Below, piece by piece: positions 325 through 9,544 of a stretch of 11,587 nucleotides of DNA. The first letter of the stretch is position 1. Each line of letters opens with the position of its first letter. The notes under the pieces are model-generated. The model searched no databases. It saw nothing but the letters and a program-made list of their open reading frames with translations, and was not told the origin of the DNA. The DNA is from Bacteroidales bacterium UBA3868 (GTDB lineage Bacteria; Bacteroidota; Bacteroidia; Bacteroidales; WCHB1-69): the NCBI GenBank assembly GCA_002392325.1, contig DGGS01000193.1:1-11587 (forward strand), read 5' to 3'. The position numbers were made by a program, and so were the translations under genes.

Positions 325-2124
325 ATGGCTATAAGACCTACTCGTATATTTGACATTCTGGATGTCATTTCCGAAAAATATGAGAAGCCCGATTTCTTTG
401 CCAAACGCACAGATGACGGCAACGGTTGGGTAACCTACAGCATCCCCGAATATGTGGATTATGCCCACAATTTCGCTTGCGCTTTTTTGGAACTCGGTTT
501 CCAAAAGGGCGATAAGATTGTCACCATCATGCGTAACCGTCCGGCATGGAATTTCTTGGATATGGGCATCATGCTGGCCGGAATGGTGCATGTGCCTGTT
601 TATCCGACCCTTAATCCGGAAGAATACCGCCATATCCTGAACCATTGCGACTGCAAGTGCATCGTGTTCGGCATTGAATCCATTTACAAACGGGTGGAGC
701 CTGTAATTCCCGATATCCAGCAACACCCCTTGATGTATAGTGTGGATAAGGTGAACAATGTTCCCTCTCTGGAAGAGTTGCTTGAACTTGGTCGCCTGAA
801 TCGCGAAAAATGGGAACCCGTGATCGAGGAAAACAAAAGAACCATATCTACCGATGACATCGCCACCATCATATACACATCCGGCACTACTGGAAAATCC
901 AAAGGTGTGATGTTGTCGCATGGTAACATCTGTAACAATTTCTTGCCCATAGTGGAAGATTTGCAGAATCTGGACTATCATTGTAAAATGCTCAGCTTCT
1001 TGCCGCTATGTCATGTTTATGAGCGTATTGTGAATTATCATTACCAATACATGGGCGTAAGCCACTATTATGCCGGAAGTCTGGCCACCATCGCCAAAGA
1101 TATGCACGACATGCATGCCGATGGGTTCTGTGCGGTCCCACGTGTGTTTGAAATGATGTATGACAAGCTGTATGCGGCAGGCAAGAATCTAAAGGGCATC
1201 AAAAAACATATTTATCTTTGGGCTTTCCGCTTTGCCACCAAATTTGATTACTATTGTGAGCGTCCACTATACCTGCTCAAGTACAACATTGCCGACAAAC
1301 TGGTGTACAGTAAATGGCGAGAGGCTTTGGGTGGACACGAGATGACCGTAGTGTCAGGTGGCTCCAGCATTCCCGAAAAGGTAATCCGTCTGTTTGTGGC
1401 CGCCAAAATCCGCGTGTATGAGGGTTATGGCCTCACAGAGACTTCCCCTGTTATTGCTGTGAACAATCCAAGAGGAAATAGCATTCAGATTGGTTGTGTG
1501 GGCGAAATCTTGCGTGGCGTGGAATTTAAGTTGGCCGATGATGGCGAAATTTTGACCAAAGGCCCTTGCTTGATGAAAGGATACTACAAAGATGAGCAAT
1601 ATACCAAGGAAGTAATTGATGAGGATGGCTGGTTCCACACAGGTGACATCGGCAGTTTGGAGAAAGGCAAGTATTTGAAAATTACCGACAGAAAGAAGGA
1701 AATCTTCAAACTCTCCCTGGGCAAGTATATTGCTCCACAAGTTGTGGAAAGCAAGCTGCACGAATCAAATTACATTGAAAATGTCATGGTGATTGGCGAG
1801 AATGAGAAATTCGCCTCCGCCATTATTGTACCTTCTTTTGATAATCTTGAGGCATTCTTCAAAAAGCGCCACTTGTCCATGCCCACATCCCGCGAAAATA
1901 TTATCCACCATCCAGAAGTGATGGCCTTGATGTCTAAAGAAGTGGATAAAGTGAACAAGACGTTGGCTGATCATGAACAAATCAAGCGTTTCAGAATGGT
2001 CCCAGACACTTGGAATATTGGTGCGGAATTGTCACAGACCATGAAGTTAAGGAGAAAATACATCTATCAGAAATACGATGCGCTTTGCCGCGAAATCTAT
2101 AACTACGACAAGAAAGAAGATTAG
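325..2124 (+). CDS. Long-chain fatty acid-CoA ligase (AMP-forming acyl-CoA synthetase, ANL superfamily)
   Basis: Predicted to activate a fatty acid with ATP to an acyl-adenylate and transfer it to CoA. The 599-residue length fits the FadD15-like class. Core ANL motifs are present in order: the phosphate-binding loop YTSGTTGKSKG (about 184-194), YEGYGLTETSP (about 364-374), GWFHTGDIG with the ribose-binding Asp (about 435-443), DRKKEIFKLSLGKYIAPQ (about 455-472) at the hinge, and a C-terminal TMKLRRK (about 572-578) matching the end of long-chain enzymes. There is no signal peptide or obvious membrane segment, so it is probably cytoplasmic or peripherally membrane-bound. The ATG is 2 nt after the glycosyltransferase stop, so the start is well fixed and the two are likely one operon; lipid precursor supply is a possible common theme, but this is inference. 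The next gene begins 109 bp downstream. Chain-length preference cannot be read from the sequence. Confidence 0.95.
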   Translation: MAIRPTRIFDILDVISEKYEKPDFFAKRTDDGNGWVTYSIPEYVDYAHNFACAFLELGFQKGDKIVTIMRNRPAWNFLDMGIMLAGMVHVPVYPTLNPEEYRHILNHCDCKCIVFGIESIYKRVEPVIPDIQQHPLMYSVDKVNNVPSLEELLELGRLNREKWEPVIEENKRTISTDDIATIIYTSGTTGKSKGVMLSHGNICNNFLPIVEDLQNLDYHCKMLSFLPLCHVYERIVNYHYQYMGVSHYYAGSLATIAKDMHDMHADGFCAVPRVFEMMYDKLYAAGKNLKGIKKHIYLWAFRFATKFDYYCERPLYLLKYNIADKLVYSKWREALGGHEMTVVSGGSSIPEKVIRLFVAAKIRVYEGYGLTETSPVIAVNNPRGNSIQIGCVGEILRGVEFKLADDGEILTKGPCLMKGYYKDEQYTKEVIDEDGWFHTGDIGSLEKGKYLKITDRKKEIFKLSLGKYIAPQVVESKLHESNYIENVMVIGENEKFASAIIVPSFDNLEAFFKKRHLSMPTSRENIIHHPEVMALMSKEVDKVNKTLADHEQIKRFRMVPDTWNIGAELSQTMKLRRKYIYQKYDALCREIYNYDKKED

Positions 2125-2145
2125 AGAAACACGGTCGTGCGTCTC
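2124..2145 (+). other. Weak hairpin overlapping the acyl-CoA synthetase stop codon
   Basis: GAGA (2124-2127) can pair with TCTC (2142-2145), and inside it CAC with GTG around a GGTC loop, separated by a 2x2 internal mismatch. No T-run follows, so it is not a convincing intrinsic terminator; it may be a 3'-end stabilising structure or chance. Confidence 0.2.
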
Positions 2146-2232
2146 AGGATACAAGCGGTGAAAGAGGTTGATGAGGTAAATGGGGTGAAATGGGAACATG
2201 AGGTGAAAATGATTTAATAGGTGAATTGGAAA
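2146..2232 (+). repeat. Purine-rich degenerate spacer with repeated GGTGAAA words
   Basis: This intergenic stretch is strongly purine-biased and built from degenerate 7-9 nt words: GGTGAAA appears three times, plus GGTAAAT and GGTGAAT variants. It separates the acyl-CoA synthetase from the TonB-dependent receptor and contains no clear TAnnTTTG promoter box. A similar tract lies at 9477-9540, and a weaker one on the minus strand at 6510-6562. The function is unknown. Confidence 0.5.
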
Positions 2233-2233
2233 T

Positions 2234-4528
2234 ATGGGAAAAAGAATTCTATTTTTGTTGGTTGTTGTACTGATGTGTGGTCTTGCAGGGGCACAGACTC
2301 TGCGGGGGCGTGTGTTGGAGGTGAATGAGCAAGGAGACACCACCGCTGTGTCTTCGGCGGCCCTTCAGTGGCTGCACACCGCTGTGGGCACGCACTCGGA
2401 TGCGAATGGTGAGTTTTCGCTTCCTCGCTCCAAATCCGACTCCCTGGTGGTGTCTTTCCCGACCTATCAGCCGGACACGCTTTGGATCACGCCGACACAA
2501 AATGAGGTTACCATTTTTCTGTCACATGCCCACTCACTGGCGGAAGTGAGTGTGGTGGGGCGTGACGGTTCGTTTATTTCCACGCAACCTATTCTTACCA
2601 CGGTGATTACGCAACAAGGTCTCCGCCGTGCCGCATGTTGCAACCTCGCCGAGAGTTTTGAGAGCAGCGTGGCCATTGATTCCGAATTTCCTGACGCGGT
2701 GAGTGGCGCGCGCCAAATCTCCATGCTCGGATTGGCGGGCGTGTATTCCCAAATTCTGCTGGAAAATGTGCCCTTTATCAGACTTCTTGCGCACCAGTTC
2801 GGTCTCGGGTTCGTCCCCGGCTCGTGGATGGAGTCAATCAGTCTTTCGAAAGGAACTTCTTCAGTGGTAAATGGCTTTGAAGCGATTACCGGCCAGATTA
2901 ATGTTGACTACAAGAAACCGGAAACGAATTTGGAGCGCTTCTTCATGAATTTTTACGCCAATTCGATGGGGAAAGGCGAATTGGCGATGAATACACGCAT
3001 TCCAATAGGCAAAAAGGATAAGGCGAGCACGAATTTCCTCGTTTTCCTGGCCGACCAGTTTGCGAAAATGGATATGAACAAGGACGGTTTCATGGATGTG
3101 CCGCGTAGTCGTCAGGTCAATGTGATGAACCGATGGGATTATAAGTCTCCGGTGGTGGAAGGCCGTACAATGGCCGGTTTTGTGTGGGACAACCGATTCG
3201 GCGGGCAGATGGGATATCATCCGAATGGCATTATGCCGGCTATTCCGGTTTATGGTTTCACCGCTGACAACAAGCGGTTGGATGTCATTACCAAGAACGG
3301 ATTCCTGTTGAATGGCGAACACGAGAGCATAGGTACGATTATTTCCTATACCGGACATTGGCTCAATTCCCACTATGGATCAACCAAGGATTATCAGGGA
3401 AATCAGCATAGTGTTTATGCTAATGTGTTGTATTCCAATAAATTCGGCGCTAAGGAACGTCATAAGTTAACGGCGGGCGGTAGTCTGCAGTTCGATTGTT
3501 TGAATGAGTATTTTCAGAATGTAAGCCAAGTTGATTTTATTGACTACAGCAGACCTCATCATCATGATCTGATTCCCGGTGTTTTTGCCGAATATGCTTA
3601 CATTATTGACCCGAAATTGGTGGTGATGGCCGGTATGCGCTTGGATTACAATATGGTACGCGACAGACAGCATTCGAATAATTGGGAGAGCATCAATCAG
3701 TTGTTCTGGACTCCGCGTGTGCATCTCAAATGGCAGGCCACAAAAAACCTGTCCGTGCGTGCTTCGGCGGGAAAAGGGTACCGAAACGCCCATTTTTTCA
3801 CCGAGAACCAGTCGTTGTTGTTTTCTTCTCGCAGCATTAGTTTCGACAGCCATCCAAAACCCGAAGAGGCGTGGAATGCGGGAGCAAGCATGGTTTATCA
3901 GTTTGACATGCCCGCGGGTAAGGGCTCTGTGGCAATTGATTATTTTTACACGCATTTTTTGCAGCAGATGATTGTGGATTTGGATCAGAACGTGCATGAA
4001 ATACATTATTATGCCCTCAACGGTGATTACAATGGTTATGGAAACCGTTCTCGCTCACATTCCGCGCAGATTGAAGTGACCCTTTGGCCGTTCAAACGCT
4101 TCGAGATGTTGCTGGCCTATCGATACAATGATGTGCGTTATATGCGCAATGGAGAGATGCGGCAGAAGGACTTGATGAGTCCGCACAAGGCACTCGTCAA
4201 TCTTAACTACAGCACCCGTTATGACAAATGGAAGTTCAATGTGACATTGCAGGTGAACGGTCCGCAACAACTCCCCGACATGTCTGCCAACCCGGCCAGC
4301 TCGCTGCCGGAGTATGCGCCAGCGTATTGCATTCTTAATGCGCAGATAACCAAGAAATTCCGCCGATGGGAAATCTATGTGGGCGCAGAAAACATGCTCA
4401 ACTATAAGCAAACCAATCCTATTGTGGATGCGCGGAATCCCTTTGGCGACAATTTCGACGCCACGGTGGTATATGCTCCGATTACGGGCATAATGGGTTA
4501 TTTGGGTGTCCGTTGTATCCTGAAATAG
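2234..4528 (+). CDS. TonB-dependent outer-membrane receptor, probably metal-related
   Basis: A 764-residue TonB-dependent receptor. Residues 1-20 are a signal peptide ending AGA|Q. Residues about 21-88 form a carboxypeptidase-regulatory-like beta domain (the RGRVLE start, GEFSLP and DSLVVSF strands), common in Bacteroidota receptors. The plug spans about 100-215 and includes SGARQISMLGLAGVYSQILL and the SLSKGTSSVVNGFEAITGQI segment near its end. The rest is barrel-like, with alternating aromatic strands and a final strand MGYLGVRCILK. It would take up a scarce ligand across the outer membrane using TonB energy. Possible ligand clues are a CysCys pair in the plug (135-136), HHHD in a predicted barrel loop (442-445), and the HMA-domain gene immediately downstream. 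The metal assignment rests mainly on that neighbour and on recollection that similar receptors sit beside HMA proteins. The ATG at 2234 is chosen because it begins the signal peptide. A cobalamin or other ligand is not excluded. Confidence 0.93.
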   Translation: MGKRILFLLVVVLMCGLAGAQTLRGRVLEVNEQGDTTAVSSAALQWLHTAVGTHSDANGEFSLPRSKSDSLVVSFPTYQPDTLWITPTQNEVTIFLSHAHSLAEVSVVGRDGSFISTQPILTTVITQQGLRRAACCNLAESFESSVAIDSEFPDAVSGARQISMLGLAGVYSQILLENVPFIRLLAHQFGLGFVPGSWMESISLSKGTSSVVNGFEAITGQINVDYKKPETNLERFFMNFYANSMGKGELAMNTRIPIGKKDKASTNFLVFLADQFAKMDMNKDGFMDVPRSRQVNVMNRWDYKSPVVEGRTMAGFVWDNRFGGQMGYHPNGIMPAIPVYGFTADNKRLDVITKNGFLLNGEHESIGTIISYTGHWLNSHYGSTKDYQGNQHSVYANVLYSNKFGAKERHKLTAGGSLQFDCLNEYFQNVSQVDFIDYSRPHHHDLIPGVFAEYAYIIDPKLVVMAGMRLDYNMVRDRQHSNNWESINQLFWTPRVHLKWQATKNLSVRASAGKGYRNAHFFTENQSLLFSSRSISFDSHPKPEEAWNAGASMVYQFDMPAGKGSVAIDYFYTHFLQQMIVDLDQNVHEIHYYALNGDYNGYGNRSRSHSAQIEVTLWPFKRFEMLLAYRYNDVRYMRNGEMRQKDLMSPHKALVNLNYSTRYDKWKFNVTLQVNGPQQLPDMSANPASSLPEYAPAYCILNAQITKKFRRWEIYVGAENMLNYKQTNPIVDARNPFGDNFDATVVYAPITGIMGYLGVRCILK

Positions 4529-4556
4529 AGTCATATACGGATATGCTAAAAAAATG

Positions 4557-4564
4557 TATTTTTG
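4557..4564 (+). promoter_or_regulatory. Probable -7 promoter box for the HMA/HKC-repeat gene
   Basis: TATTTTTG followed by CAC matches the Bacteroidota sigma-ABfr -7 consensus TAnnTTTG exactly. It lies 78 bp before the ATG at 4643, giving a leader of roughly 70 nt. No clear TTTG -33 element is seen at the usual distance. This suggests the HMA gene can be transcribed independently of the receptor. Confidence 0.55.
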
Positions 4565-4642
4565 CACGATTTAACCCAAGACCCTTTTTTGAGTCATAAA
4601 AGAGTTTGAAATTTATTATTAACCAATATCAAATACTGAAAA

Positions 4643-5410
4643 ATGAAAAAATTCATCTTGTTGGCCCTGATGGCCGTTGTGACGCTGGGTGCTTACGCTC
4701 AAATGCAAAGCGTTACCATTCAAACCAATGCTTCTCTCAAATGTCAGAAGTGCATTGACCGTTTCAAAGATAATGTCCCGTTCTTCAAGGGCGTGAAAGA
4801 TTACACATACGATGCCAACACGGCAAAAATCACGATCAACTACGATTCCAAGAAGACCACTCCTGACCAGTTGCGTCAGCAAATCAGCAAATTAGGTTAC
4901 AATGCGGATGCTGTGAAGGCCGATCCCGCCGCGCGTGAGAAACTCCCCGCATGTTGCAAGAACAGCGGGACCTGTGGCCACGCCGAGACAACCGCTGCGC
5001 CGGAGCACAAATGCCAACACGCTGACGGACAACACAAATGCCAAGGCCAAGCCGCTGGTGAACACAAATGTCAGGGTGCCGCTAACGGAGAGCACAAATG
5101 CCAAGGCCAGGCTGCTGGTGAGCATAAGTGCCAGGGTCACGCCGAAGGTCAACACAAATGCCAGGGTGCCGCTAATGGCGAGCACAAATGTCAAGGCCAG
5201 GCCGCTGGTGAACACAAATGCCAGGGTCACGCCGAAGGTCAGCACAAATGCCAGGGTGCCGCTAATGGCGAGCACAAATGTCAAGGCCAGGCCGCTGGTG
5301 AACACAAATGCCAGGGTCATGCCAACGGCGAGCACAAGTGTGCTGGAGCCCAGGAACATAAATGTCAAGGGCAGAAAGTGGACAACTCAAAAGCGGTAGA
5401 GAAAAAATAA
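4643..5410 (+). CDS. Exported HMA-domain protein with a tandem Cys/His (HKC) repeat tail, probable metal binder
   Basis: 255 residues in three parts. Residues 1-19 are a signal peptide cleaved at AYA|Q. Residues about 22-92 are a ferredoxin-fold HMA domain with the metal-binding loop carrying C34-x-x-C37 (LKCQKCIDRF) and a C-terminal SKLGYNADA strand; this fold binds Cu(I), Zn(II) and similar ions in CopZ- and MerP-type proteins. A linker has a second thiol cluster, C104, C105, C111 and H113. Residues 121-241 contain 13 copies of His-Lys-Cys, mostly every 10 residues in units such as GEHKCQGQAA, GEHKCQGHAE and GQHKCQGAAN. The whole protein has 18 Cys and 18 His. The likely role is to bind, buffer or hand over a soft metal in the periplasm or at the surface; the metal is not known. 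It follows the TonB-dependent receptor by 114 bp, has its own promoter box, and is closed by a strong terminator. The low-complexity tail could also be a disulfide-linked or structural segment. Confidence 0.9.
   Translation: MKKFILLALMAVVTLGAYAQMQSVTIQTNASLKCQKCIDRFKDNVPFFKGVKDYTYDANTAKITINYDSKKTTPDQLRQQISKLGYNADAVKADPAAREKLPACCKNSGTCGHAETTAAPEHKCQHADGQHKCQGQAAGEHKCQGAANGEHKCQGQAAGEHKCQGHAEGQHKCQGAANGEHKCQGQAAGEHKCQGHAEGQHKCQGAANGEHKCQGQAAGEHKCQGHANGEHKCAGAQEHKCQGQKVDNSKAVEKK
5003..5365 (+). repeat. In-frame 30-bp tandem repeat with a 90-bp higher-order unit encoding the HKC array
   Basis: A 30-bp unit centred on CACAAATGC/T repeats throughout and is in frame with the HMA gene. A three-unit, 90-bp superrepeat is seen at 5071-5160, 5161-5250 and 5251-5340. 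The last two copies are identical over their first 69 bases and differ mainly in the final 20, showing a recent duplication, whereas the first copy has several mostly synonymous changes. Because the unit is a multiple of three, gain or loss of copies keeps the frame and would change the number of HKC motifs. The other frames also stay open through the array, which creates spurious ORFs on both strands. Confidence 0.95.
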
Positions 5411-5434
5411 GCTTTTGGAATTTTAGAAAAACAG

Positions 5435-5472
5435 AAGCACCACAGTCATACGGATTGTGGTGCTTTTTCTTT
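5435..5472 (+). terminator. Strong intrinsic terminator after the HMA gene, possibly bidirectional
   Basis: AAGCACCACA (5435-5444) pairs with TGTGGTGCTT (5456-5465); three more pairs, GTC with GAT including one G-T, extend the stem to 13 bp around an ATACG loop. It is followed by a T-rich tract through 5472. It lies 25 bp after the HMA stop. Read on the minus strand it is followed by CTGTTTTT, so it may also end transcripts from the convergent hicB gene. Confidence 0.88.
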
Positions 5473-5479
5473 GTCCAGT

Positions 5480-5525
5480 TTAAGGTGCGTTCATTGTTCT
5501 ATTGCACGCGTCACCTGCGCCTTAA
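5480..5525. other. Inverted repeat between the convergent genes
   Basis: TTAAGGTGCG (5480-5489) pairs with TGCGCCTTAA (5516-5525) with two G-T wobbles and a 26-nt loop. No T-run follows. It lies between the terminator and the hicB stop codon. It could be a secondary 3'-end structure, but the long loop makes this weak. Confidence 0.25.
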
Positions 5526-5538
5526 GGGTGTTCTATGC

Positions 5539-5937
5539 CTAAAGTGTAATGCTCAAAAGTTCTTCGGCGAAGCGATGGATTCCGTTCCGAATTCGATCTA
5601 TCTGTTTCTTACGGGGGGTTGCTTTGTGGTTGAGGTAATTGGATAGTTGTTTTTGGTTGATCCCGGTCATTTTCTCCATGCCAGATAGTGACATAAAGTT
5701 GGAATAATATTCGAGGAAAGAAGGTACATCAATCTTCCATTCTATGGTATAATCGTCCTTCAGAAGATAAGGCCATTGTTCTTCTGGCTTGGTTTCTTTC
5801 AGAAGTCGAATGGCCTCTACGGTATCCATTTTTACGGCTTCTATGGAATCTCCAGCCGCATAGATGCCATCACAGTTTTCAGCATAGGCACCGAAATGGT
5901 CTTTTGATTTTTCTATAATCATAATGATCTTTTCCAT
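5539..5937 (-). CDS. hicB: HicB-family antitoxin-like protein with C-terminal helix-turn-helix (no HicA seen)
   Basis: 132 residues. The N-terminal half (MEKIIMIIEKSKDHFGAYAE, then a glycine-containing GIYAAGDSIEAVKMDTVEAIRLL) matches the HicB partial-RNase-H fold, which neutralises a HicA mRNA interferase. Residues about 84-130 (MEKMTGINQKQLSNYLNHKA and following basic helices) look like a helix-turn-helix DNA-binding domain, so autoregulation is likely for the family. The frame stays open upstream to a TTG at 6063, but the ATG at 5937 is chosen because homologs as I recall begin MxKIIxIIEKSKDxxxAY and because an AT-rich tract precedes it. HicA is normally a 60-80 residue protein next to hicB; none is seen on either side, as the 131 bp upstream holds no HicA-like frame and downstream lies the terminator. 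It may be an orphan regulator or the remains of a toxin-antitoxin pair. Confidence 0.85.
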   Translation of the reverse strand: MEKIIMIIEKSKDHFGAYAENCDGIYAAGDSIEAVKMDTVEAIRLLKETKPEEQWPYLLKDDYTIEWKIDVPSFLEYYSNFMSLSGMEKMTGINQKQLSNYLNHKATPRKKQIDRIRNGIHRFAEELLSITL

Positions 5938-6068
5938 AATATAAAAATTATGCTGACGCCGGTTTGGGACACAGCTTCGCACAGCGGTCAATAATGGTGT
6001 TAGCCCACACGAATTCTGAATCACAGGCGGGTTTGCCCCGTGTGCCATCAAACCCATAGACAAATGCG
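5938..6068 (-). other. Spacer with ankyrin-like reading frame or dispersed-element remnant
   Basis: This 131-bp gap between the DUF2147 gene and hicB has unusual content on the minus strand. The frame leading into hicB reads MGLMAHGANPPVIQNSCGLT followed by PLLTAV, which resembles part of an ankyrin repeat (HGANP and G-x-TPL-x-x-A). A second minus-strand frame is also open to a TAA at 5948-5950 and gives a Cys-containing peptide (ACDSEFVWANTIIDRCAKLC then PKPASA) without a start codon. Either reading could be a remnant, or both could be accidental within a non-coding repeat element. It also contains a hairpin (6022-6044) and a GCTGTG direct repeat (5968-5983). No function is assigned. Confidence 0.3.
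6022..6044 (-). other. GC-rich hairpin downstream of the DUF2147 gene
   Basis: CACA-CGGG pairs with CCCG-TGTG around a 5-nt loop, with a two-base bulge: an 8-bp GC-rich stem starting 25 bp after the DUF2147 stop on the minus strand. No T-run follows, so it is at best a weak or Rho-assisted terminator, or a structural part of a repeat element. Confidence 0.35.
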
Positions 6069-8030: not shown

Positions 8031-9476
8031 TTATTTCATCTCTTCGCATGTCACTATACCATCGCGCGTAGCTGTGATGCGGAACCCTCTGTACTCGGTT
8101 TCCTCATTGTGACTGAACTGCAAAACAATATGGATGATATACACCCGCAAGGTGGGCACCGACCGCAGTGTGCCATCCTCCGTGAGCAAGTCCACGGGCA
8201 AGGTGGGATCGTCCATTTTCTGTGTGTATTGCTGGATGTGGAACCGCATGATGTCGTTGATGCCCGCAAACTGGTACTCGTAATGGTTGCGCAGGTTCTG
8301 AGTGTTGATGCTGACCTGCTTGCGGTACAGGATGGTGCGCTCCTGCTGCAAGGTGTTGTCCGCCTCCAGATCGCTTCTGTTACGGATGGCCAGCACCCGG
8401 TCGGGCGTCTTGGCATCGTTGATGAAGTCCATGCCCTCCTTGACCCAGCCAATTTCCTCTTCCTTGAAATGGATGGTGGTTTTGTGGTCGAAATACTTGG
8501 ATTTCAGCCGGTGCACGAAAAGGTTGCGTGCGAAATCCTTGATGCGGTCCTTGAACATGTAGGCCACAATCAGGATGATGAAAATGAGGAACGGGTAACT
8601 GCCCAGATACTTTTGGAAAGGCCAGGCAATGAGCGTGGACACCAGCATGGCGAATCCGGCGGCGATGCTGAAGGTGATTTCCTTCATGGCGGCGCCGTCG
8701 TTGGTGGTGTCCTTTTTAAGATACAACGCGCTTTCGATGTATTTCTTGAGCAGACCGTGCTTGTACACAAGGTCTTGGTTGGCCTTGTCATCATGGGGCG
8801 TAATGTGGCTGTATCCCATGCCCTCTTTGTATGCAATCTCTTGTTGGATAAGCTGTTGCAGTTTTTGGCGGGCATCTCCGAAATCATGCTCCGGATGCGT
8901 GTCCATAAAACGCAGCAGTCGTGCGGCCTGAATGCCGATAAGATGGCTCATGTATTCGTCGCCATGCAGGAAAACGGTAGGCACAAACTCGTTTCCATCA
9001 TATTCTTGAATCAGCTGGCGATAAGATCGGGTGATGCGGGTGACAACATCGGTTATGTCTGCCGGCGCAGAGGCGGGAATGTCGGCAGGTGCCGATTTCA
9101 GAATCCCGTTGGAGGCGTCACGCAAGGCGCTTTTGAAAATGGCGCAGAACATCTTGACTTGGAATTCCAGATCGTGAATGCTGGCGGGCTGTTTGCGGTA
9201 TTGTTCAAGGGCTTGTCGCACATGCGCCAGAGGCGAATCCGCACCATCCACCAATTCCGAAAGGGCATAATTGGGCGTGATGAGGCGGATGTTCGACTTC
9301 ACATCACGGTAAAACTGCTCCTTGCTGTAGGTGGAGGCATTGATTCCCATACTGTTCGGGATAAAAATCCAGGAATTCACCTTGAAATTGCTCTCCATAT
9401 CCTTCTCGCTGCCGGCAAAACCGACTTTGAACTCGATGGAGAATTGGTCATGTATTTTGGTGGTGATGTTGATCAT
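8031..9476 (-). CDS. Conserved-looking membrane protein of unknown function with two adjacent transmembrane helices
   Basis: 481 residues, not recognised. No signal peptide is present. Residues 1-265 look soluble and mainly helical, with a low-complexity SAPADIPASAPADIT duplication (128-142), a TVFLHGDEYMSHLIGIQAAR segment (167-186) and a charged Gln/Lys-rich helix (201-260). Two hydrophobic helices follow at about 268-286 and 293-308, separated by only a short QKYLGSY turn, and then a strongly basic stretch (KDRIKDFARNLFVHRLKSK). By the positive-inside rule both ends should be cytoplasmic, making a hairpin anchor. The last 170 residues are charged and end with strand-like segments (LRVYIIHIVLQFS, YRGFRITATRDG). 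The ATG at 9476 is preferred to a TTG at 9539, which would put the promoter box inside the coding region and add a non-conserved-looking tail read from a purine-rich spacer. It is divergent from the fucosidase-GH3 gene. No function is proposed. Confidence 0.85.
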   Translation of the reverse strand: MINITTKIHDQFSIEFKVGFAGSEKDMESNFKVNSWIFIPNSMGINASTYSKEQFYRDVKSNIRLITPNYALSELVDGADSPLAHVRQALEQYRKQPASIHDLEFQVKMFCAIFKSALRDASNGILKSAPADIPASAPADITDVVTRITRSYRQLIQEYDGNEFVPTVFLHGDEYMSHLIGIQAARLLRFMDTHPEHDFGDARQKLQQLIQQEIAYKEGMGYSHITPHDDKANQDLVYKHGLLKKYIESALYLKKDTTNDGAAMKEITFSIAAGFAMLVSTLIAWPFQKYLGSYPFLIFIILIVAYMFKDRIKDFARNLFVHRLKSKYFDHKTTIHFKEEEIGWVKEGMDFINDAKTPDRVLAIRNRSDLEADNTLQQERTILYRKQVSINTQNLRNHYEYQFAGINDIMRFHIQQYTQKMDDPTLPVDLLTEDGTLRSVPTLRVYIIHIVLQFSHNEETEYRGFRITATRDGIVTCEEMK

Positions 9477-9536
9477 GTAGGGGTGAAAAGGGTAAACGGT
9501 GAAAGGAGTAAAAGAGTAAGAGAGTAAAAGAGGGTG
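9477..9536 (+). repeat. Purine-rich degenerate spacer, second copy of the GGTGAAA type
   Basis: The plus strand is almost entirely purine plus T at fixed positions, with GGGTGAAA, GGGTAAA, GGTGAAA, GGAGTAAAA, GAGTAAG and GAGTAAAA following one another. It resembles the tract at 2146-2232. Here it forms the 5' leader of the minus-strand membrane-protein gene (pyrimidine-rich in that transcript). Confidence 0.5.
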
Positions 9537-9544
9537 CAAAGGTA
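9537..9544 (-). promoter_or_regulatory. -7 promoter box for the unknown membrane-protein gene
   Basis: The minus strand reads TACCTTTG followed by CAC, an exact match to TAnnTTTG. It is about 60 bp upstream of the ATG at 9476, giving a leader of about 54 nt. No clear TTTG is found at -33. Confidence 0.6.

Follow-up and report, generated by a model that had tools for sequence, protein, structure and literature searches.

The window analysed here, the whole 11,587-nt stretch of DNA from Bacteroidales bacterium UBA3868 (contig DGGS01000193.1), encodes an exported HMA protein with a C-terminal His-Lys-Cys array next to a TonB-dependent outer-membrane receptor. Our best explanation, to which we give a probability of roughly 0.64, is that the HMA protein acts as a periplasmic metal relay or buffer for this receptor and carries a metallothionein-like tail; the metal binding, the identity of the metal (Cu(I) or Zn(II)) and the direction of the metal flux are what we infer from the comparisons below. 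These comparisons show that receptor and HMA gene occur side by side across much of Bacteroidia, in some genomes merged into one protein, and that the C-terminus, or the linker in some fusions, has been repeatedly expanded into Cys- and/or His-rich stretches. As judged from sequence and gene order, the HMA protein does not stand alone: what is conserved is its combination with the TonB receptor, to which the array has been added. This combination was missed in an earlier note on this DNA, which described the HMA protein and its array.

An exported HMA protein with a His-Lys-Cys array

The gene (4643..5410, + strand) is an ATG-start open reading frame encoding 255 aa, recognized by its Pfam HMA match and its homologs. 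It begins with a signal-peptide-like N-terminus (residues 1-20; 4643..4702, +; MKKFILLALMAVVTLGAYAQ, judged by eye), in which no lipobox was seen and in which A19 and Q20 are invariant across 16 aligned members. The HMA domain follows at residues 32-86 (4736..4900, +), with its CxxC formed by C34QKC37, and matches the PF00403 profile at 37.7 bits against a cut-off of 24.8 (E = 2.8e-9), which places the protein in the HMA family. The sequence does not single out a metal: the usual HMA motif is MxCxxC, and the core of the window protein is without the Met, just as the receptor described below is without the OprC motif at its CC. A second cluster, C104 C105-x5-C111-x-H113 (4952..4981, +), was delineated from sequence and alignment, with C104 and C105 invariant in 29/29 aligned members.

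The array itself spans residues 122-241 (5006..5365, +) and comprises 13 HKC motifs, positioned at residues 122, 131, 141 and so on up to 231 and 239. When the residues from 101 on were shuffled 20,000 times, at most 4 HKC motifs were obtained (mean 0.2), as compared with the 13 observed. The open reading frame, the PF00403 match and the residue counts bear out the inventory given in the earlier note, namely a signal peptide, an HMA domain with CxxC, a CC-x5-C-x-H cluster, 13 HKC motifs, and 18 Cys and 18 His in the whole protein. The even 10-residue spacing that was also described holds for ten of the gaps; the first and last gaps measure 9 and 8, respectively, and the 10-residue period is nested within a 30-residue repeat, the counterpart of the 90-bp DNA unit of a tandem repeat detected by TRF (3.3 copies, 90% matches; 5031..5323, +).

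In the AlphaFold2 model, block means of pLDDT were 88-97 over residues 21-100, which contain the confidently modelled HMA core, and 41-60 from residue 111 on, in the tail, which is modelled with low confidence. Foldseek matched the core to the HMA domains of copper ATPases, a zinc ATPase, copper chaperones and MerP, with a best E value of 2.1e-3, and no HMA match to the core model fell under E 0.001.

A terminator-like hairpin of 15 pairs lies 3' of the gene (5433..5467, +); the hairpin scan, run over positions 2050-5600, returned 3 such sites, as compared with 4.0 expected in shuffles, and this one has the most pairs. Further along the window, a 174-aa protein encoded at 5539-6063 (-) has a weak HTH match and by eye is HicB-type antitoxin-like, and a 502-aa protein encoded at 8031-9539 (-) has no Pfam or NCBIfam match above cut-off.

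Pairing with a TonB-dependent receptor

The gene upstream (2234..4528, +) encodes a TonB-dependent outer-membrane receptor of 764 aa, assigned from Pfam and from its recurrence as a conserved neighbour. Its barrel scores 75.5 bits, above the cut-off, and its plug (23.0 of 23.9 bits) and CarbopepD_reg_2 domain (29.1 of 32.2) both fall just below theirs. The plug contains a CC motif, C135-C136, that is invariant in 29/29 aligned receptors ranging from Rufibacter to the gut genus of the window. In the receptor model the barrel is of fair quality and the plug poor, and Foldseek matched the model alike to CirA, BtuB, ZnuD and OprC; we rejected an assignment of the metal from fold matches, as these do not discriminate.

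The two genes are adjacent on the same strand, with 114 bp between the receptor stop at 4528 and the HMA start at 4643. This gap holds the sequence TATTTTTG (4557..4564, +), a putative element read by us in the sequence, which resembles the Bacteroidales -7 promoter element, with its consensus TAnnTTTG. As TAnnTTTGC occurs in 4/8 aligned TonB-HMA gaps, transcription of the HMA gene may start from a separate promoter.

A receptor gene directly upstream of the HMA gene (within 400 bp, same strand) was found for 38 of 69 HMA genes tabulated from genome records, a set drawn from 73 loci with L084, L088, L092 and L105 left out and L102 represented by its second copy only. This adjacency varied with the type of tail, and was seen for 11/15 HKC, 15/21 tail-less, 11/17 short and 1/16 CxxH tails; among the 16 CxxH-tail genes, besides the single adjacent case, 2 had a receptor near, 10 had no receptor in the locus and 3 were at contig edges. 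In a wider sample of the class, an HMA gene lay within 500 bp of a receptor ORF, or inside it, in at least 123 genomes (123 of the 149 with a receptor among the matches listed, best scores first, compiled by hand with G000 excluded, and with two genomes counted as adjacent because the genes are fused). No opposite-strand neighbours were seen among these 149, and in 26 of them no nearby HMA gene was found among the matches listed. The HMA gene was placed downstream of the receptor in 64 and upstream in 21 of the 123 genomes in one set, and downstream in 11 and upstream in 28 in a second, in which one genome counts both as downstream and as upstream. The genomes of L154, L156 and L157, whose Cys-rich tails are described below, were absent among the receptor matches listed; since CxxH tails are also mostly unpaired, tail and receptor can part.

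Other neighbours were less regular. In the window, FadD precedes the receptor, and no HYC_CC_PP-type third gene, which would encode a small exported Cys/His protein, is found before it. An ORF of about 118-161 aa lies directly before the receptor in L060, L067-L069, L073, L075-L078, L094-L099, L102, L104 and L105; out of 7 such pre-receptor proteins from relatives that were tested, 3 matched NF047658 (HYC_CC_PP), all below cut-off. A ferritin-like gene occurs directly upstream of the TonB-HMA pair in L065 (by eye) and L074 (an ORF of the same size), and a tandem pair of exported HMA genes follows the receptor in L102. We rejected an assignment of the metal from neighbours, because the SulP/bicarbonate-type permease, FecCD-like permease and ferritin-like protein near some relatives form no consistent pattern.

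Natural fusions of the HMA protein and the receptor

In 6 of the 8 long ORFs that we read (L120, L134, L136, L137, L140 and L141), HMA domain and receptor are fused within a single ORF, in the order signal peptide, HMA domain(s), CC motif and TonB receptor, with two HMA domains each in L140 and L141; the other two long ORFs read, L135 and L138, contained no HMA-receptor fusion. In L120, the Pfam plug and CarboxypepD-like domains pass their cut-offs and the HMA domain falls just below (24.7 of 24.8 bits), and a His-rich, Cys-free linker is found between the CC motif and the receptor. L134 carries, between its HMA/CC part and its receptor, a HEGHDHD-type repeat that is likewise His-rich and Cys-free, and that we read as an independent ligand array at a position matching that of the HKC repeats.

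The N-terminus of TonB receptors is established to be on the periplasmic side of the outer membrane. Because the HMA and His-rich stretches of the fusions are joined to the receptor at this end, they are predicted to be periplasmic. This placement, together with the lack of a visible lipobox, argues against the surface capture that the earlier note had entertained, which is unlikely because the window protein looks periplasmic and not lipoprotein-like. We also rejected a surface lipoprotein or T9SS cargo, as no lipobox was seen and no secretion-domain match passed its cut-off; the sole match to a T9SS-type domain was to the PorU N-terminal model, at 22 of 40 bits.

Distribution of the HMA core and of its tails

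Our first protein search returned 196 relatives, with a precomputed HMA domain in 119 of the 120 best listed. The exception, P0075, has an HKC tail on an unrelated start and comes from a lone 1037-base contig, so that it may be a chimera or a case of tail capture. A second search, with a short-tailed relative as the query, returned 359 relatives (best 120 listed), and among the 60 nearest genomes, a set that includes the one of the window, 46 had a match. The closest loci belong to uncultured Bacteroidales whose labels name the rumen, reticulum, omasum, abomasum or caecum, or horse faeces, and more distant ones to LacPavin MAGs, Marinifilum, Flavobacterium and Rufibacter; the bin of the window, which is 79.6% complete, has one HMA domain. 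Across a sample of the class Bacteroidia, the core profile matched 242/296 genomes (240/294 among genomes with a completeness of 90% or more and a contamination of 5% or less), and the open frames among the listed matches were mostly of about 110-160 aa.

The distant HMA forms stop a few residues past the LPxCC motif, whereas those of the gut lineages continue into a short Cys/His tail, a GCGNH/CSGH-type array or an HKC array. Arrays of the HKC type were encountered in the gut genus of the window and in close metagenomic relatives only. On a tree of 69 HMA cores, which was built from 85 columns and leaves many forks unresolved, the HKC label changes 6 times, with at least 4 of the changes forced by well-supported branches.

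Independent Cys-rich tails unlike HKC occur on the same core in two other families. In one of these (f79), the signal-HMA-CC layout of L139 continues into CSDKNCKDKDCKDK repeats and an HD run, directly before a receptor gene. In the other (f63), L154, L156 and L157 have Cys-rich tails with CC and CxxxxC clusters and little His; in appearance these tails are closer to classical metallothioneins than is the HKC array. These four are the Cys-rich cases (4/28) among the readable long HMA ORFs outside the genus, a set chosen for length that covers mostly 150-240 aa, with the frames of about 280-320 and 420-700 aa lying outside this reading and with L149 lacking a readable core; L146 has a short His-rich tail. 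The tails of L139, L154, L156 and L157 rule out that arrays of Cys and His occur in gut Bacteroidales alone. In two isolates (RGIG7251 and RGIG9758; L045 with L081 and L054 with L083, respectively), a tail-less HMA gene adjoins the receptor and a copy with an HKC tail lies at another site, as if roles had split.

Metal efflux in the genus

P1B ATPases were found in 23/40 genomes of the genus. Tail classes were assigned in 30 of the 40 (with G009, whose tail is mixed and partly frameshifted, counted as HKC), and a P1B heavy-metal ATPase (TIGR01525) was not found in 14/17 HKC-tail genomes but was present in 13/13 CxxH-tail genomes (p = 4.8e-6, Fisher). The ten unclassified genomes, comprising G008, G010, G021, G026, G030 and G031, which gave no HMA match, and G060-G063, which were outside that search, include 7 with a P1B ATPase and 3 in which it was not found; one of the latter is G060 (90% complete), the sole HMA ORF of which is 131 aa. 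The P1B label changes twice on the HMA-core tree, with only 1 change forced by well-supported branches, so that the association with the tail is weak as evolution; we rejected P1B loss as proof of compensation, since one or two events suffice. RND efflux was rejected as well, because all 40 genomes match the HME-RND profile but 39 do so only below the cut-off and 1 above it. CDF exporters were found in 36/40 genomes. The two P1B pumps that were read carry SCPCALVIS, which we take to be a Zn/Cd-type P1B motif. Three genus members (L117, L118 and L119) encode permease-like proteins with a C-terminal HMA domain, presumably resembling SO_0444-type efflux permeases.

The missing P1B ATPases are no more than suggestive of a buffer that takes over from efflux. 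A further-reaching reading, which we put forward tentatively and consider somewhat doubtful, is that the protein is a receptor-coupled periplasmic metallothionein, in which TonB-dependent import would load metal directly into an HMA protein with an evolvable, metal-storing ligand array and make import and sequestration one unit; arrays would have been invented on this core several times in Bacteroidia, and in part of the gut genus the array would replace the missing P1B efflux ATPase.

We think it rather unlikely that the array is a detoxification sponge, which would shield the envelope from excess Cu, Zn or Ag instead of efflux pumps, the link to the receptor being ancestral and incidental to the tail. 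The contrast in P1B pumps between HKC-tail and CxxH-tail genomes would fit such a sponge, as would the single HME-RND pump above the family cut-off and the SCPCALVIS motif of the two pumps read. That contrast, however, amounts to the two tree changes, only one of them forced, and is drawn with 10/40 genomes unclassified for tail, including the 3 without P1B and among these G060 with only its 131-aa HMA ORF; CDF exporters are widespread in the genus, and the window's bin is just 79.6% complete.

Conservation of Cys and His in the arrays

All 13 HKC copies of the window protein recur in P0012, a database protein that is likewise of 255 aa, and eleven proteins of 225 aa (P0001-P0011) have one 30-aa unit fewer, with 10 HKC motifs each, or 9 in P0007. 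Because these proteins differ by whole units, the number of HKC copies is polymorphic, and the array cannot be put down to a single faulty assembly.

We compared 194 unique tails, between 9 and 170 residues long (2/212 proteins without the LPxCC motif being excluded), of which 73 were of the HK/QC type, 76 of the CxxH type and 45 of neither. The Cys count tracked tail length (r = 0.92). The Cys+His fraction was the least variable of the quantities measured (CV 0.15, although a sum can be expected to be steadier than its components), as compared with CVs of 0.19 for Cys, 0.24 for His, 0.29 for K, 0.35 for G, 0.45 for both Q and A, and 0.72 for E. The HKC arrays differ in unit and in length, with Cys+His retained.

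A similar pattern was seen at the level of codons, in 70 repeat units that were anchored on GE and not on the motif itself (14 HKC-type proteins among the 66 unique proteins recovered). Diversity at codon positions 1-2 did not exceed 0.14 in the codons of H, K and C, as compared with 0.38-0.54 at the five following codons, and the third positions of the H, K and C codons had a diversity of 0.31-0.37. These tests are not independent, and are weakened as formal tests, since the repeat units are copies that share descent; despite this, the contrast in conservation is one between neighbouring codons within the same repeats.

The 12 tails with the lowest Cys+His content among the 194 ranked comprised one frameshifted tail (P0111), partly decayed ones (e.g., P0208) and others with a ligand-poor end. 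None of them was an intact array without ligands, the case that the earlier note had named as refuting its reading. Another tail, that of L017/L049, is partly frameshifted, and single units have lost a ligand in P0007 and P0041.

A redox role, in which the Cys array would be a periplasmic thiol/disulfide buffer or electrophile sink and not a metal store, strikes us as improbable. The many thiols on an exported protein, the retention of Cys at least as well as His, and the Cys-rich, His-poor tails of L154, L156 and L157 would suit it, but the His of the HKC units is kept about as tightly as the Cys, a constraint that would be superfluous in a thiol sink, and metal is indicated by the HMA core and by the linkers of L120 and L134, which are rich in His and free of Cys. 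Very improbable is a selfish tandem-repeat expansion that left a slippage-prone, near-neutral, low-complexity tail without a function of its own: near-identical proteins do differ by one 30-aa unit, and frameshifted tails have lost Cys and His (P0111, L017/L049), but the H, K and C codons are conserved in HKC units with their neighbours free, silent changes exceed amino-acid ones at His and Cys, the Cys+His density is steady across different units, and unrelated ligand-rich tails occur on the same core in other families.

Discussion

Several known systems resemble parts of the pair. The HMA metallochaperones (CopZ/Atx1 and MerP; PF00403) have the HMA fold and the CxxC in common with the window protein, and MerP is also periplasmic. 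The window protein nevertheless scores far below the cut-offs of the MerP equivalog (29.6 of 92.55 bits; TIGR02052) and of the CopZ equivalogs (27.7 of 95, NF033794; 26.7 of 91, NF033795), and it adds the CC cluster and the His/Cys array and has a TonB receptor as its partner. Bacterial metallothioneins, such as SmtA and MymT, are akin to it in their high Cys content and presumed multi-metal binding; the window protein differs in being exported and in the distribution of its array Cys, which occur once per 8-10 residues beside His and form no CxC clusters. No metallothionein profile was found among the Pfam and NCBIfam matches up to E 1, so that the likeness to metallothioneins raised in the earlier note does not extend to family membership. 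Plant HMA4-type Zn ATPases also bear a long Cys/His-rich tail on an HMA protein, but there the tail belongs to a eukaryotic membrane pump, unlike in the window protein.

The SilE/PcoE sponges are likewise exported and built with repeated ligand motifs, and a sponge of the SilE type folds on metal. According to the available portion of one report, the motifs of SilE consist of His and Met, and metal-free SilE is disordered (PMC5008109); the window protein has a signal-peptide-like start and low pLDDT block means (41-60) in its tail. SilE/PcoE lack an HMA domain, and no sequence relation to them was found. The Csp1/Csp3 copper storage proteins also use many Cys for high-capacity storage, and the part of the literature available to us describes a periplasmic member of the family (PMC12510493) and, for Csp3, a four-helix bundle with the Cys facing inward (PMC5171941), whereas the Cys of the window protein sit in a low-complexity tail.

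On the receptor side, the OprC/NosA copper receptors share the TonB-dependent fold, and OprC was among the matches to the receptor model. The metal site of OprC is CxxxM-HxM, and no chaperone partner is described in the accessible portion of its report (PMC8610252). We rejected an OprC-like copper receptor, as the plug CC, to which this comparison was limited, reads C135-x3-A139 and C136-x3-E140 and does not fit CxxxM-HxM. Periplasmic HMA proteins and an OprC-like receptor are listed for Bizionia argentinensis in the accessible portion of PMC11213822. We found no description of the HMA-receptor pair or of the arrays in the accessible portions of the open-licence PMC literature, including PMC11213822, PMC10434189, PMC8610252 and PMC5008109.

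According to our preferred reading, a periplasmic relay or buffer for the TonB receptor, the receptor would carry either Cu(I) or Zn(II), as a soft or borderline metal, over the outer membrane, and the CxxC and CC sites would accept it where the plug faces the periplasm. The disordered array would bind many ions and serve as a periplasmic buffer or store, from which metal could later be released and by which free metal would be kept low. The HMA protein would then work as if a metallothionein or a SilE-type sponge had been attached to a chaperone domain. Cu(I) is favoured because of the HMA family, and Zn(II) because Zn-type pumps are missing, and we prefer neither to the other. Weighing against this reading are the CxxH tails that mostly lie away from the receptor, the 26 receptor-bearing genomes in which no nearby HMA gene was found among the matches listed, the fold matches that do not discriminate, and the separate promoter that the HMA gene may have.

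To our knowledge, the import of ionic copper or zinc across the Gram-negative outer membrane, and its hand-over on the inner side, are poorly known. The widespread pairing of a TonB receptor with an HMA protein, along with the natural fusions of the two, provides a concrete candidate for a hand-over complex in Bacteroidia. The arrays point to a capacity for metal that is adjusted through the number of repeats, and the gene pair and its fusions suggest a built-in metal trap for what the receptor imports.
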